49,473 nt of DNA from an uncultured SAR86 cluster bacterium (GTDB lineage: Bacteria; Pseudomonadota; Gammaproteobacteria; Magnimaribacterales; TMED112), in NCBI GenBank assembly GCA_902535365.1, contig CACATF010000005.1:1-49473 (forward strand). Reading direction: 5' to 3'. Every line of letters starts with the position of its first letter. Within the stretch, counting starts at the first letter, position 1. Positions 30,555-35,302 of this stretch are shown in pieces. The position numbers and the translations under genes are program-made. Below the pieces are notes generated by a model that made no database searches, was not told where the DNA came from, and saw only the letters and a list, made by a program, of their open reading frames with translations.

Positions 30555-30588
30555 TTGTCACACAATTGTTTAATACAATAAATAGTAT
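30555..30588 (+). promoter_or_regulatory. Possible Pho box and -10 for the receptor-phytase unit
   Basis: Two half-sites at 11-base spacing, TTGTCAC-ACAA-TTGTTTA (30555-30572), match the E. coli Pho box (CTGTCAT, 4 bases, CTGTCAT) at 11 of 18 positions. A -10-like TAGTAT follows at 30583-30588 after 10 bases, the distance expected for PhoB activation, and no sigma70 -35 stands at the right place. The second half-site is weak. Confidence 0.3.
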
Positions 30589-30607
30589 TTTTTTACGAGG
30601 ATTTTTT

Positions 30608-33229
30608 ATGAAAAAATATATTTTACTTCTATCAATACTTACTTACTCAATTTTTAGCCAAGAGGTTAATGATGATATCGAAGAAGTCGTTTCAATTGGA
30701 CAAAAAGCTGGTTTAAAGTCAGCTCTTAAAAAGCAACAAGACTCTGATAGCATCATATCAGTTGTTGACTCAGATGGTCTGGGACAGTTCCCTGACACAA
30801 CAGCTGCTGAAGCAGTCAGAAGGTTATCAGGAATAAGTGTAGAAAATGATCAAGGGGAGGGTCGTTACATAGTTATCAGAGGGATGAGTCCAGAGTTGAA
30901 TAGCTTTGCTTTTAATGGAGCAATGTTAGCTGCTCCTGAAAATAATAGAGCTGTACTATTAGACGGATTATCAACGGATCTATTATCCTCAATCACAGTT
31001 TCTAAAACCCTAACGCCTGACCAAGATGCAGATTCTATAGGGGGAAGGATAGATTTTAAGACTTTGAATCCACTTGATATAGATGGTTCTTACAATCGAT
31101 TAAAAATTGAATCATCTTGGAATGAACTAACAGAATCTTCAAATAACCCAAGAATGTCATTTACTACTGGTAGGAAAGTGTCTAGTGAGTTTGCTTATTC
31201 AGTTGGCATGAACTACCAATCAAGACAAACAATCGCAAACAATAATGAAACTGGTTTTGGTTGGGAACCAGAAAATAACGTTTGGTTCATGAATGATGAT
31301 TACGAGCAAAGATATTATGATTTAACAAGACAAAGACTTGGTCTTAGTGGAGAAATGAGCTTCTTAATCAATGATTCAACTCAATTATATATACGAGCCC
31401 TTCATAATGATTATCAAGATGATGAACTCAGGTTTAAGGATGAATATGGCAAGTTGGATATGGTGAGTATGGGCGCAACATCAGCACGCTACGATAGAGT
31501 AAGACATGATGTAGAAACAAGACAAAGGATTGAAACCAGAACTCTCCAAGCAATTAGTTTTGGCGGTTCAACAGAATTAGATTTTAGAGGCAATGTATTT
31601 AATGTTGATTTTGACTACTCTTATTCTTTTGCTGAAGAGAATGATACTGATAACGCAGATGCAACATTTAGATGTGAAATCAGAGCAGATAGAGACGAAT
31701 GTATTGACCTTGATGGTGTTTATGATGACTGGGTAGCAGAAATAGACTGGTCCAATCCTCAAACACCGGTATTTATGTGGAATCCAAGCGTACCAGGCAT
31801 AAATGCTGTATATGATCTAAGTAATTATGAATTAGATGAAGTTGAATTTGAAAAAGCAGTCAGCGAAGATACCATTAATGCCTTTAAATTAGATTTTACT
31901 AGAGATCTTGTTAGGTTTGGTTTTGATGCAACAGAAAAGTTTGGATTTAAATCATCTGAAAGAGAAAAAAATGTTCAGATTGATAATTCATTTTGGTCTG
32001 GCGGAGATTATACACTTGCCAATTTAAACCCTACCGGACCTGCTATTTGGAGACTACCAAATCCATTTTTTACTTCTGCTGGCCCATCAGCAGTAAGAAA
32101 TTTAGAGAACCTGCTAGATACTATGGAGATTTCTGAAGATAGCTCAAGATATGCAAGCTTTGCAGAAGATTTCATTACAAATGAAGACGTTACATCTATT
32201 TATTACATGAATACATTTAGAGGCGAAGTAGCAACAATAATTCTAGGCTTTAGATATGAAATTACAGATACAGAAACCTTAGGAAATGATGCCTCATTAA
32301 ATGAAGATGGTGTTGGCGGATATGTCTGTGCTGGATCTTTTGCAGATGATGTGTGTGTGGTGCCACAAATAGCATCTGGTAGACATGAATTTTTTGCTCC
32401 TAATTTTACATACAAGTTACAACTTGATGATAACTTAATATTCCGTGCCGCACGCTGGAGCGCGCTATCAAGACCAAAATTTACTGCCTCAGCCTTTAGA
32501 ACAATGGTTGAGATAGAAGAGGATGATGGTGAGATAGACGAGGCAAAAGCAGAAGTTGGTAACCCAAACTTAAAACCAATGGAAGCAACTAATTATGATT
32601 TTGGGCTTGAATATTATTTTTCAGACTTCTCTTATGTGGGTATAAATTTCTTCACTAAATATATCAAGAATGATGTATATAAAGTTCTTAGAGAAGATGT
32701 TTCTTATCAAGGCATAATGCTAGATGAGTATGTATCTTATGTTAATGCTGATGAGGGCGAACTTAATGGTATGGAAATAAATTTTCAATATGAACTAGAA
32801 AATCTACCAGGATTCTTCGTATCAGCAAATTACACAAGCACAGAAGGAGAAAATGAAAGTCCATTCGATAGAACAGAAAGAATTCCCTTTAGAAAGCTTT
32901 CTGAACAAAATGCAAATTTAAGCTTTGGTTATGATAAGGGCAAATTTGATGTAAGATTGGCTGCAAACTACAGATCTGATTATTTAGACGTATTATCACA
33001 AGATGAAGATGCTTCACTAAATTCATTAGATTATTCAAGATTTACAGATAATTTTATGCAAGTAGATTTTACTGCTAAATACAGATATAGTGATCAACTT
33101 ACATTTAATTTTGAATTAGTTAACATTAATGATGAACCGGAATACTATTACTGGGGAGATAAAACAAGGTTATCTCAGTACGATGAGTATGGTTCCACAG
33201 TTAACTTTGGTGCCAGATACAGTTTTTAG
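30608..33229 (+). CDS. TonB-dependent receptor (possibly phytate/organophosphate-linked)
   Basis: Outer-membrane active transporter. Signal peptide MKKYILLLSILTYSIFSQ, a short N-terminal stretch DIEEVVSIGQ that may include the TonB box, the plug with FPDTTAAEAVRRLSGISVEN, GRYIVIRGM and GGRIDFKTL, and a C-terminal 22-strand barrel ending in GARYSF with terminal Phe. 873 residues, in the Caulobacter-type receptor group. The start at 30608 has an ACGAGG Shine-Dalgarno; the frame to 30566 is an extension. A phytase gene overlaps its end, so the ligand may be inositol phosphates or released products; this is inference. Confidence 0.92.
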   Translation: MKKYILLLSILTYSIFSQEVNDDIEEVVSIGQKAGLKSALKKQQDSDSIISVVDSDGLGQFPDTTAAEAVRRLSGISVENDQGEGRYIVIRGMSPELNSFAFNGAMLAAPENNRAVLLDGLSTDLLSSITVSKTLTPDQDADSIGGRIDFKTLNPLDIDGSYNRLKIESSWNELTESSNNPRMSFTTGRKVSSEFAYSVGMNYQSRQTIANNNETGFGWEPENNVWFMNDDYEQRYYDLTRQRLGLSGEMSFLINDSTQLYIRALHNDYQDDELRFKDEYGKLDMVSMGATSARYDRVRHDVETRQRIETRTLQAISFGGSTELDFRGNVFNVDFDYSYSFAEENDTDNADATFRCEIRADRDECIDLDGVYDDWVAEIDWSNPQTPVFMWNPSVPGINAVYDLSNYELDEVEFEKAVSEDTINAFKLDFTRDLVRFGFDATEKFGFKSSEREKNVQIDNSFWSGGDYTLANLNPTGPAIWRLPNPFFTSAGPSAVRNLENLLDTMEISEDSSRYASFAEDFITNEDVTSIYYMNTFRGEVATIILGFRYEITDTETLGNDASLNEDGVGGYVCAGSFADDVCVVPQIASGRHEFFAPNFTYKLQLDDNLIFRAARWSALSRPKFTASAFRTMVEIEEDDGEIDEAKAEVGNPNLKPMEATNYDFGLEYYFSDFSYVGINFFTKYIKNDVYKVLREDVSYQGIMLDEYVSYVNADEGELNGMEINFQYELENLPGFFVSANYTSTEGENESPFDRTERIPFRKLSEQNANLSFGYDKGKFDVRLAANYRSDYLDVLSQDEDASLNSLDYSRFTDNFMQVDFTAKYRYSDQLTFNFELVNINDEPEYYYWGDKTRLSQYDEYGSTVNFGARYSF

Positions 33230-34271
33230 CTATCCATTTAAGAAATTAACCCTGTTAATAGCAGGGTTAATTCTATTTGGATGTACGGCCTCTAATGATG
33301 ATAACTATCCAACTGTTAGTTATATAGTAGAAACAGAGCCAGTAGTAACCAATGATGATGCTGCTGATGATCCAGCTATATGGATTAATTTGGATAATAC
33401 AGCCAACTCATTAATCTTTGGTACAGACAAAAAATCAGGTATATATGTATATGACCTGAAGGGCAATATCTTAAGCTATCAGAACCTAGGTAGTATCAAT
33501 AACGTTGATTTAAGAGTAATTGACGATGAATTACACCTAGTCTCATCAAACAGATCTGATAGCACACTAGACTACTGGATATTTCCAACAGAGGGTATTT
33601 ATCAATACTTTGAAAATAATCCTGATAATGCTTTTTCAGAAGAGCTAAAACACTTCCACCTTGAAGCAGGGATGGATATATATGGTATTTGCATGGGAAT
33701 CATTAATGGTGCTCCTGTAGCTGCTTTAACAGAAGAAGAAGGCGTAAGAGTTCAATATTGGGATTTAACTCAACTAAAGATAATCAATACCTTCGATATT
33801 ACTGCTGATGAAGATAATGTCCCACTACTGGGTAATGAAGCGGAAGGATGTGTTTTTGATGATGAAAATAAGTACATTCATGTGTCACGTGAAGGCGCAC
33901 GAGGATTCCTTAAAACTTACAATGCTGAAAACCAACAATTGGTTAAAGTTATAGACTCAAGAGATGGCAATGTTGGAGGAGATCCAGAAGGAGTAGCTAT
34001 TTATAAGGTAGATGCTACAACTGGTTATATAATTTTATCCTCTCAAGGCGACAGTAAATTTAATATTTACGATAGAGAATATCCCTTTACATACATTGAT
34101 TCTTTCAGAGTTGATAATGTCTCTGATACCGATGGTATAGATGTAACTAGTGCTTCTCTTGGTGATTATGCACCCAATGGTATTTTAGTAGTCCAGGATG
34201 GCTACAACCAACCTGACAATCAGAATTTTAAGATTGTGAGTATGGAAGAGGTCTTTAAAAAAAAAGAGTAG
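33183..34271 (+). CDS. Beta-propeller phytase, lipoprotein
   Basis: Six-bladed beta-propeller phytase (3-phytase, PF02333), a calcium-dependent enzyme that releases phosphate from phytate. Hallmarks: DDAADDPAIWIN, LIFGTDKKSGIYVYDL, INNVDLR, NEAEGCVFDDENKYIHVSREG and GGDPEGVAIY. A signal peptide with lipobox LFGC (followed by TASND) would tether it to a membrane, perhaps the cell surface. The start is uncertain: ATG 33183 or 33189 lie inside the receptor gene (47-base overlap), and GTG 33210 gives a more usual signal peptide. It ends in an A9 run followed by GAG TAG. Confidence 0.92.
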   Translation: MSMVPQLTLVPDTVFSYPFKKLTLLIAGLILFGCTASNDDNYPTVSYIVETEPVVTNDDAADDPAIWINLDNTANSLIFGTDKKSGIYVYDLKGNILSYQNLGSINNVDLRVIDDELHLVSSNRSDSTLDYWIFPTEGIYQYFENNPDNAFSEELKHFHLEAGMDIYGICMGIINGAPVAALTEEEGVRVQYWDLTQLKIINTFDITADEDNVPLLGNEAEGCVFDDENKYIHVSREGARGFLKTYNAENQQLVKVIDSRDGNVGGDPEGVAIYKVDATTGYIILSSQGDSKFNIYDREYPFTYIDSFRVDNVSDTDGIDVTSASLGDYAPNGILVVQDGYNQPDNQNFKIVSMEEVFKKKE

Positions 34272-34330
34272 ATTGGTTAACGCAACTCCAAATATTTAGC
34301 TTTAAAAACCCCCTAATAGCACCTTTAATA

Positions 34331-34783
34331 TTGACAATTTTAGGCTTCCTAGAGTCTTTTGTTATCAGTGGATTCTTTTTTCCAAGCTTATTGCTGTACC
34401 TAATGGCGGTATTTCTCTATCTGGAAGGCATTTCTAGCATCTATGTTTTAACAGCTTTTGCTTATATTGGGGCATTTGTCGGTGATCAATCTAGTTATCT
34501 AATGGGACGAATTTTTGGATCAAAGATGCTTAAATGGAACATATTTAAAAAACGCACAAAACAAGTTGAGAAAACAAAAACCTGGTTTGATAAATACAAG
34601 TTTGGTGCTATTTTGCTAGGCAGAATGACTCCAAGCATTAGACCTTTTGCACCATTTTTTGTTGGTACATTTCGGTTAAATTACAGGACTTTTTTATTCT
34701 TTGATTTAATAGCATGCACAGTTTGGGCTAGTGGTTTAGTACTCCTTGTCATATTATGGGAATATATAGGAAGTTTATTCTAA
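34331..34783 (+). CDS. DedA-family membrane protein (start unclear)
   Basis: DedA/VTT-domain membrane protein; some relatives are undecaprenyl-phosphate or phospholipid flippases. Conserved parts: GFLESFVISGFFFPSLLLY, YIGAFVGDQSSYLMGRIFGSK and LLGRMTPSIRPFAPFFVGTFRL with the family Arg and Pro residues, then two TM helices. The only usual start codon is TTG at 34331, but the frame is open back to 34259, and the codons before the TTG (VDWLTQLQIFSFKNPLIAPLI) look like the normal DedA N-terminus. So the true start may be upstream at a rare codon, or made by slippage at the A9 run in phytase. Confidence 0.8.
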   Translation: MTILGFLESFVISGFFFPSLLLYLMAVFLYLEGISSIYVLTAFAYIGAFVGDQSSYLMGRIFGSKMLKWNIFKKRTKQVEKTKTWFDKYKFGAILLGRMTPSIRPFAPFFVGTFRLNYRTFLFFDLIACTVWASGLVLLVILWEYIGSLF

Positions 34784-34784
34784 T

Positions 34785-34961
34785 ATGTTAGGTCTTCTAA
34801 GCTTAGTTCTTTTAGTCATACTCGTAGTATTGCTTTTAAGTTACTTTTCAAAAACAAAAGAAAAGAATTTCTTAAAAGACTTAACCATAAAGTTTTTTGC
34901 AGTTGTATTAACAATAGCCTGTGTATATCTGTTTGTTCGTCTGTTAAGGTTCATAATTTAA
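34785..34961 (+). CDS. 58-aa two-TM microprotein
   Basis: A 58-codon frame begins 1 base after the DedA stop and ends in TAATG, sharing a base with the ATG of the HIT gene. It has a hydrophobic helix (residues about 2-20, MLGLLSLVLLVILVVLLLSY), a basic loop with SKTKEKNFLKD, and a second helix (about 35-51) ending with Arg-rich VRLLRFII. Two-pass membrane protein of unknown function. The exact fit between its neighbours is strong support that it is translated. Confidence 0.65.
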   Translation: MLGLLSLVLLVILVVLLLSYFSKTKEKNFLKDLTIKFFAVVLTIACVYLFVRLLRFII

Positions 34962-35302
34962 TGGCTAAATCAATATTTACTAAGATCCTCGATGGTGAAA
35001 TCCCAGGAGATATTCTTTTTGAAGACGAAGTTTGTTTTGCCATAAAAGATATCAACCCACAAGCACCAATACATATATTAATAATTCCAAAGAAACCTGT
35101 TGAGAAGGTATCAGATGCTGAATCCGATGATAAGGAGATGCTAGGTCATTTGCTTCTTGTTTCAAAAGCAATTGCAAATGAACAGGGGCTTGATGATAAC
35201 TACCGTTTAATAATCAATAATGGTGCCAAGGCAGGCCAAAGTGTATTTCACATACATGTGCATTTGCTTGGAGGCAGGAGTCTAAATTGGCCACCAGGTT
35301 AA
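34961..35302 (+). CDS. hinT: HIT-family (HinT-like) nucleotide hydrolase
   Basis: Histidine-triad protein, likely a purine nucleoside phosphoramidase. The triad HxHxH is H97, H99 and H101 in FHIHVHLLGG, and N-terminal IFTKILDGEIPGDILFEDE is the HinT beginning. 113 residues, standard for HinT. The ATG overlaps the stop of the upstream two-TM microprotein, so the genes are probably in one operon with DedA. Confidence 0.95.
   Translation: MAKSIFTKILDGEIPGDILFEDEVCFAIKDINPQAPIHILIIPKKPVEKVSDAESDDKEMLGHLLLVSKAIANEQGLDDNYRLIINNGAKAGQSVFHIHVHLLGGRSLNWPPG

Follow-up and report, generated by a model that had tools for sequence, protein, structure and literature searches.

Among insect symbionts with reduced genomes, Blochmannia for example, poly-A runs rescue reading frames and the lesions concerned are tolerated. 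Ribosomal slippage sites usually carry stimulators, whereas slippage by RNA polymerase needs only the run itself. To our knowledge, free-living bacteria have few conserved recoding sites in their ordinary chromosomal genes. For dnaX of Thermus thermophilus, the available text of two reports (PMC1088944, PMC5009743) describes transcription that slips on nine A's, a pure A9 in the coding frame, with stops near in both other frames and two products made from one gene. According to the former, many genomes avoid such runs at a length of nine, and the available part of the latter names A_AAA_AAG as the heptamer on which E. coli ribosomes slip best. In Citrobacter rodentium, according to the available text, slippage on an A11 run ahead of a stop restores full-length tssM1, and both forms are made (PMC4256274). 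The available part of a study of E. coli and Buchnera transcriptomes reports no frame-restoring transcription error (PMC5574713). DedA proteins fused to PAP2 phosphatases are also known, from the accessible text of PMC10127716.

The junction considered here lies in a stretch of 49,473 nucleotides (the window) from an uncultured SAR86 cluster bacterium, contig 5 of a 928 kb genome that is 86.6% complete. Its GTDB family, TMED112, corresponds to the CHAB-I-7 lineage, characterized in the available part of PMC11582366 as free-living, with genomes of about 1 Mb and a fast clock. As in Thermus dnaX, a pure A9 run in the coding frame would allow two products; in dnaX the standard frame is long and the slip truncates it, whereas at the SAR86 junction the standard frame ends and the slip would add a second protein without a start of its own. 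The likeness to tssM1 is that poly-A stands before a stop and both forms would be made, but tssM1 is one interrupted protein, whereas the SAR86 junction would join, across a genus, two genes that in sister families are separate and start normally. PAP2–DedA fusions likewise pair a phosphatase with DedA; PAP2, however, is of another family and is joined by domain fusion, whereas here a phytase would be joined by slippage. Blochmannia is likewise AT-rich and reduced, with A-runs bridging frames, but in the SAR86 case A9 is rare elsewhere and this site is unchanged in 16 genomes. The junction would add to programmed slippage and is not a new principle. By title, none of the literature matches listed concerned a phytase–DedA junction or slippage in SAR86.

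Features of the locus are collected in Table 1. The phytase frame ends TTT AAA AAA AAA GAG TAG. The frame −1 to it is shut by a TAA at 34256–34258 and is then open to the DedA stop at 34781–34783; because of this TAA, the frame switch in the window is confined to the run and one codon. The initial annotation had described the A9 run, the DedA frame in −1 and the absence of a start before the first TTG, and all of this was reproduced on the window sequence. The upstream gene is taken to be TonB-dependent-receptor-like from the look of its translation. Directly after the DedA stop, between DedA and the HIT-family gene, a small hydrophobic open reading frame was noted (34785–34961, + strand), for which Pfam gave no match at E 0.001.

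Table 1. Features at the phytase–DedA junction (window coordinates)
Feature	Position	Strand	Basis
Presumed TonB-dependent-receptor-like outer-membrane protein gene, upstream, same direction	30566..33229	+	ORF only
Beta-propeller phytase gene; start uncertain within about 33129–33237	33129..34271	+	ORF, Pfam, structure match
Phytase lipoprotein-type signal (..LTLLIAGLILFGC)	ends near 33284	+	by eye
ATG inside the phytase frame, 15 nt ahead of the run	34242..34244	+	comparison of genus with other families
A9 run (candidate slippery site), phytase codons AAA AAA AAA	34257..34265	+	sequence and comparison
Phytase stop TAG, one codon past the run	34269..34271	+	sequence
DedA (VTT-domain) frame, −1 to phytase; has no start codon of its own	34259..34783	+	ORF, Pfam
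VTT-domain match inside the DedA frame	34379–34750	+	Pfam
GAT codon opposite the sister-family DedA start Met (MSLD.. vs DWLT../SWLD..)	34271..34273	+	aligned by eye
TTG, first canonical start in the DedA frame; varies among relatives	34331..34333	+	ORF list, comparison
HIT-family protein gene; follows DedA in sister-family loci read too	34961..35302	+	Pfam, comparison

Both frames encode recognizable proteins. The upstream frame matched beta-propeller phytases (PF02333, 143.3 bits against a cut-off of 21) and, across residues 31–349, the solved Bacillus phytases (3amr_A, E 9.9e-37), and is a predicted enzyme; as this alignment ends at most 7 residues before the last Lys of the run, the phytase would be complete before any slip. 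The downstream frame encodes a VTT-domain protein (PF09335, 72.4 bits against 33.9). Its scores fell below the NCBIfam equivalog cut-offs for UptA (DedA, COG0586), at 41.4 against 300 and 23.9 against 250 bits, and it is treated only as a putative lipid-flippase-like DedA, not as UptA. In its re-entrant tips, mapped to the published residues by eye, a Glu and two Arg are invariant, and the position usually held by Asp is Ser in 13 of 13 sequences. A search of the PDB with the DedA protein gave no match at E 1, and an AlphaFold model built with 13 sequences (pLDDT 59, pTM 0.36) was too weak for topology.

To follow the junction across the genus, 21 genomes were searched, the family set being the same 21. 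The phytase–DedA pair was present in 16, the DedA carriers being exactly the phytase carriers. Neither gene was found at E 0.001 in the other five, one of which is 97% complete, so some members of the genus appear to do without the product. The 16 carriers form 7 groups at 90% DedA identity, and in each carrier this DedA was the sole VTT-domain protein found. All 16 have AAA AAA AAA in the phytase frame followed by DedA in −1. The run is A9 in 12 genomes and A10 in four, where the preceding codon ends in A, and the DedA N-terminus follows its end by 8 nt in 12 genomes and by 5 nt in four, so that phase is preserved through the change in length. The phytase stop falls one codon past the run in the window, 7 codons past it in three genomes and 8 in 12. 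Closure of the −1 frame at the run itself was seen in only three genomes (G000, G006 and G019); in the other 13 this frame is open for 10–19 codons before the DedA N-terminus, and there the run is marked by conservation, not by necessity.

Start codons were sought in the DedA frame, with codons counted from the residue aligned with the window Asp. The first canonical start is at +20 in the window (TTG), at +21 in two genomes (ATG) and at +31 to +76 in the remaining 13, where it falls beyond the invariant Glu at +27. One genome, G006, contains no ATG, GTG, TTG, ATA, ATT, ATC or CTG between the upstream stop and DedA codon +39. In the sister families, by contrast, a DedA start codon was read by script in 28 of 28 loci (25 ATG, 2 GTG, 1 TTG), lying 22 to 30 codons upstream of the corresponding ES-type motif; 29 loci had been given, and the one that the script missed begins MSLD... 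One sister-family genus (g10) has the same order, phytase–DedA–HIT, with the DedA ATG overlapping the phytase end in 9 of 9 loci, so in that genus the genes are adjacent and DedA still starts ordinarily. Phytase and DedA are about 1 kb or more apart in the other sister genera inspected. Aligned by eye, the ancestral start Met stands opposite Ser or Asp codons in the window's genus, and among the loci read the start-less junction appears to be particular to this genus. A DedA without a start in every genus genome that carries it is unusual among recoding sites, and a gene caller requiring ATG, GTG or TTG would truncate or miss it.

The run appears to be kept at the level of DNA. Its three Lys columns hold AAG in none of 48 codons from the 16 genomes, whereas AAG appears, in 1–6 genomes, in every one of the 8 further Lys columns that are conserved in 14 or more of the 16; the exact chance of this split, calculated by hand, is 1/165, a value that ignores shared ancestry. 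A comparison of the 7 group representatives showed differences at 65% of four-fold sites and at 35% (85/240) of A/G two-fold sites. In the window, A9 occurs once, against a mean of 7.9 in dinucleotide shuffles, and only one of six KKK motifs in its 39 open reading frames is pure A. With a single A9 in the window and the arrangement recurring in 16 of 16 genomes that have the locus, chance is not the explanation. Variation in DedA by codon position is 0.32/0.08/0.51 from codon 9 onward, a pattern that shows purifying selection on the protein; for the first 8 codons it is 0.31/0.23/0.33, with little frame-specific constraint, which weighs against the reading proposed below.

We propose, with a probability of about 0.7, that the A9 is a conserved slippage site and that DedA is made only by way of a slip, as a phytase–DedA fusion beside free phytase. 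Most translation would stop at the phytase stop soon past the run and yield the free exported enzyme. In a fraction of messages, RNA polymerase slippage would add an extra A or, less likely, ribosomes would slip by −1. Either event would bring the DedA frame in line and produce a signal peptide, a periplasmic phytase and a DedA membrane domain in one chain. Because no start codon of its own is present in the genus, slippage would be the sole route to DedA and would set the ratio of free phytase to phytase–DedA anchored in the inner membrane. The parts of this proposal differ in strength. The genome comparison gives good support to the conserved expression, by way of a slip, of a DedA that lacks a start behind the phytase, and that DedA expression depends on a slip we regard as very probable; that the product is the full fusion, rather than a protein begun at the internal ATG, is probable to a lesser degree. 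Conservation of the run, the relation of the frames, the loss of the start and purifying selection on DedA are demonstrated by the sequences; slippage itself, the machine behind it, its rate and the full-fusion product are what we infer.

Explanations that dispense with slippage fare poorly. A sequencing error or a private frameshift, behind which there would truly be one open reading frame or an ordinary start, might be suspected since A-runs are error-prone, and a private break at an A9 in tolA (below) could be such a case; the phase is nevertheless equal in 16 genomes that span different species; two are assembled as a single contig, 12 are single-amplified-genome-type isolates or MAGs from several projects, and we consider this reading barely credible. 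The initial annotation had proposed alignment of relatives' DedA N-termini, and the A run and absent start proved to be kept in all 16 genomes; the ordinary ATG that would have indicated a local mutation or error occurs at this place in none of them. As a candidate for the genus junction, private error or mutation was discarded on the 16 genomes, the own genome included. Decay of DedA into a pseudogene would account for the lost start and for the absence of both genes from 5 of 21 genomes, but with the frame open in 16 of 16, protein identity of 65–100%, variation biased to third positions and phase to the run maintained, it is highly improbable. Slightly less so, though still very unlikely, is initiation at a non-canonical codon or at the TTG by re-initiation after phytase termination, which would suit a phytase stop only 1, 7 or 8 codons past the run and a TTG that is the first canonical start in the window. 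Against it, the TTG varies among relatives, the near-cognates differ between genomes, and G006 has none to +39. Of the three options that had been offered for the window, the frameshifted fusion therefore gains support from the run, the −1 phase and the missing start in 16 of 16 genomes, whereas the shorter DedA from TTG is contradicted by the late first canonical starts in 13 genomes, and a rare start codon by the lack of any common to the genomes. TTG and near-cognate starts were rejected as candidates, their positions differing across the 16 genomes.

The two more serious alternatives keep the slip and change either what slips or what is made. Programmed −1 frameshifting by ribosomes on the heptamer A AAA AAA, the mechanism of E. 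coli dnaX, would need no slippage by the polymerase. The heptamer lies inside the run in all 16 genomes, and Shine–Dalgarno (SD)-like sites within 15 nt before the run, scored with an anti-SD core that we assumed, are strong in two (−9.3) and moderate in three (−5.6 to −6.5); in the other 11 they are weak (−3.1 to −3.3). The heptamer A_AAA_AAG occurs in none of the 16. RNAalifold, which considers nested pairs only, predicted 0 pairs downstream of the run in 15 of the 16 sequences, one with Ns having been left out and MAFFT having misaligned four rows by 3 nt at the run; single folds of six of the 16 junctions were ordinary (z −1.64 to 0.91). No SD-like or RNA-structure stimulator sought at the run was conserved. 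Judged against −1 ribosomal frameshifting of the E. coli dnaX or IS type, the junction thus has the heptamer and lacks a predicted 3' stem-loop; compared with transcriptional slippage of the Thermus dnaX type, it has both the uninterrupted run of about nine and conservation among relatives. Gene starts in the window also show no SD use, which tells against ribosomal slippage. The pure run, the lack of conserved downstream structure and the mostly weak SD-like sites favour RNA polymerase as what probably slips, by about two to one, and ribosomal frameshifting in its place is possible but unlikely. The lack of frame-restoring transcription errors in the E. coli and Buchnera study (PMC5574713) weighs against the polymerase. 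As separate observations, SD at −4 or better was found at 15% of window starts (first ATG of 39 open reading frames of at least 150 aa) against 17% in the background, and the usual sequence at the 16S 3' end is present in the own genome, having been found in 5 of 21 genomes.

A slipped message or ribosome might instead serve a DedA that begins at the internal ATG, giving MEEV(L/F)KKK–DedA in most genomes and no fusion. All 16 genus genomes have this Met 15 nt upstream of the run, whereas the position is Phe in 30 of 30 phytase loci read from other families; the Met has no role in the fusion model and could suit internal initiation. The absence of an SD before it says little, as window starts lack SD. 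On the other side, a slip would still be required, and KKK would be placed on a tail that in sister DedA proteins is acidic and probably outside, an arrangement that would be easier with an exported preceding domain. In sister families, net charge averaged −2.4 over the DedA tail that precedes the first re-entrant segment and +5.5 over the loop preceding the second, each from 17 loci (of 29 loci given, 20 matched the pattern and 17 of these had a tail; none of the nine g10 loci is among them). By the positive-inside rule these charges place the DedA N-terminus outside, so that a Sec-exported phytase followed by DedA in one chain is possible. An export signal was recognized by eye in all 14 phytases whose N-terminal part was read, those of G006 and G007 being cut. 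Overall, initiation at the internal ATG is slightly less likely still than ribosomal frameshifting, and we retain the phytase–DedA fusion as the preferred product. Within the genus, phytase signals are lipobox-like in six cases and signal-peptidase-I-like in eight, by eye.

Slippage on such runs in SAR86 was also approached through dnaX. In the genus, 18 of 21 genomes were matched, one locus beginning past the site, and an A9 or A10 run was found at codons 349–359 in all 17 loci that cover it, with a −1-frame stop 1–4 codons further on and a +1-frame stop, G006 excepted, 2–9 codons further on. The own-genome coordinates are C1:435029–435037 and 435142–435150. In one sister family (29 of 41 genomes matched, 25 loci fetched), 25 of 25 have A9–A11, and both other frames reach a stop within 8 codons. 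By analogy with Thermus, these dnaX runs make slippage on such runs in SAR86 likely. A search for SAR86 dnaX found no paper in the literature library used. More tentatively, and with somewhat less than even confidence, polymerase slippage on A9/A10 may be a standing two-protein device in SAR86, old in dnaX (tau/gamma, in at least two families) and reused in the window's genus to weld phytase and DedA, once separate genes; the lipid-flippase-like DedA would then exist only as the tail of an exported phytase, and slippage by the polymerase would govern how much phytase is free and how much membrane-anchored.

In G006, the standard dnaX frame ends 4 codons past the run and the long frame is +1. 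The standard frame likewise ends soon after the A-run in one sister-family genome, G094; in both it looks as if run length had drifted, with slippage or assembly error behind the long form.

The own genome contains 30 overlapping A9 matches. Among its other A9 sites, for which 24 stretches were scanned for open reading frames and five were read closely, one further frame change was found by eye. It breaks the frame of a gene on the minus strand (C2:135384–135392) that we take to be tolA from its position between tolR- and tolB-like genes, recognized by eye. As tolA is open in all 15 relatives with a match, the break is private to the own genome, and it may be a mutation, an error or a case of slippage rescue. 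It shows, by contrast with the phytase–DedA junction, the appearance of an error or fresh mutation at an A9.
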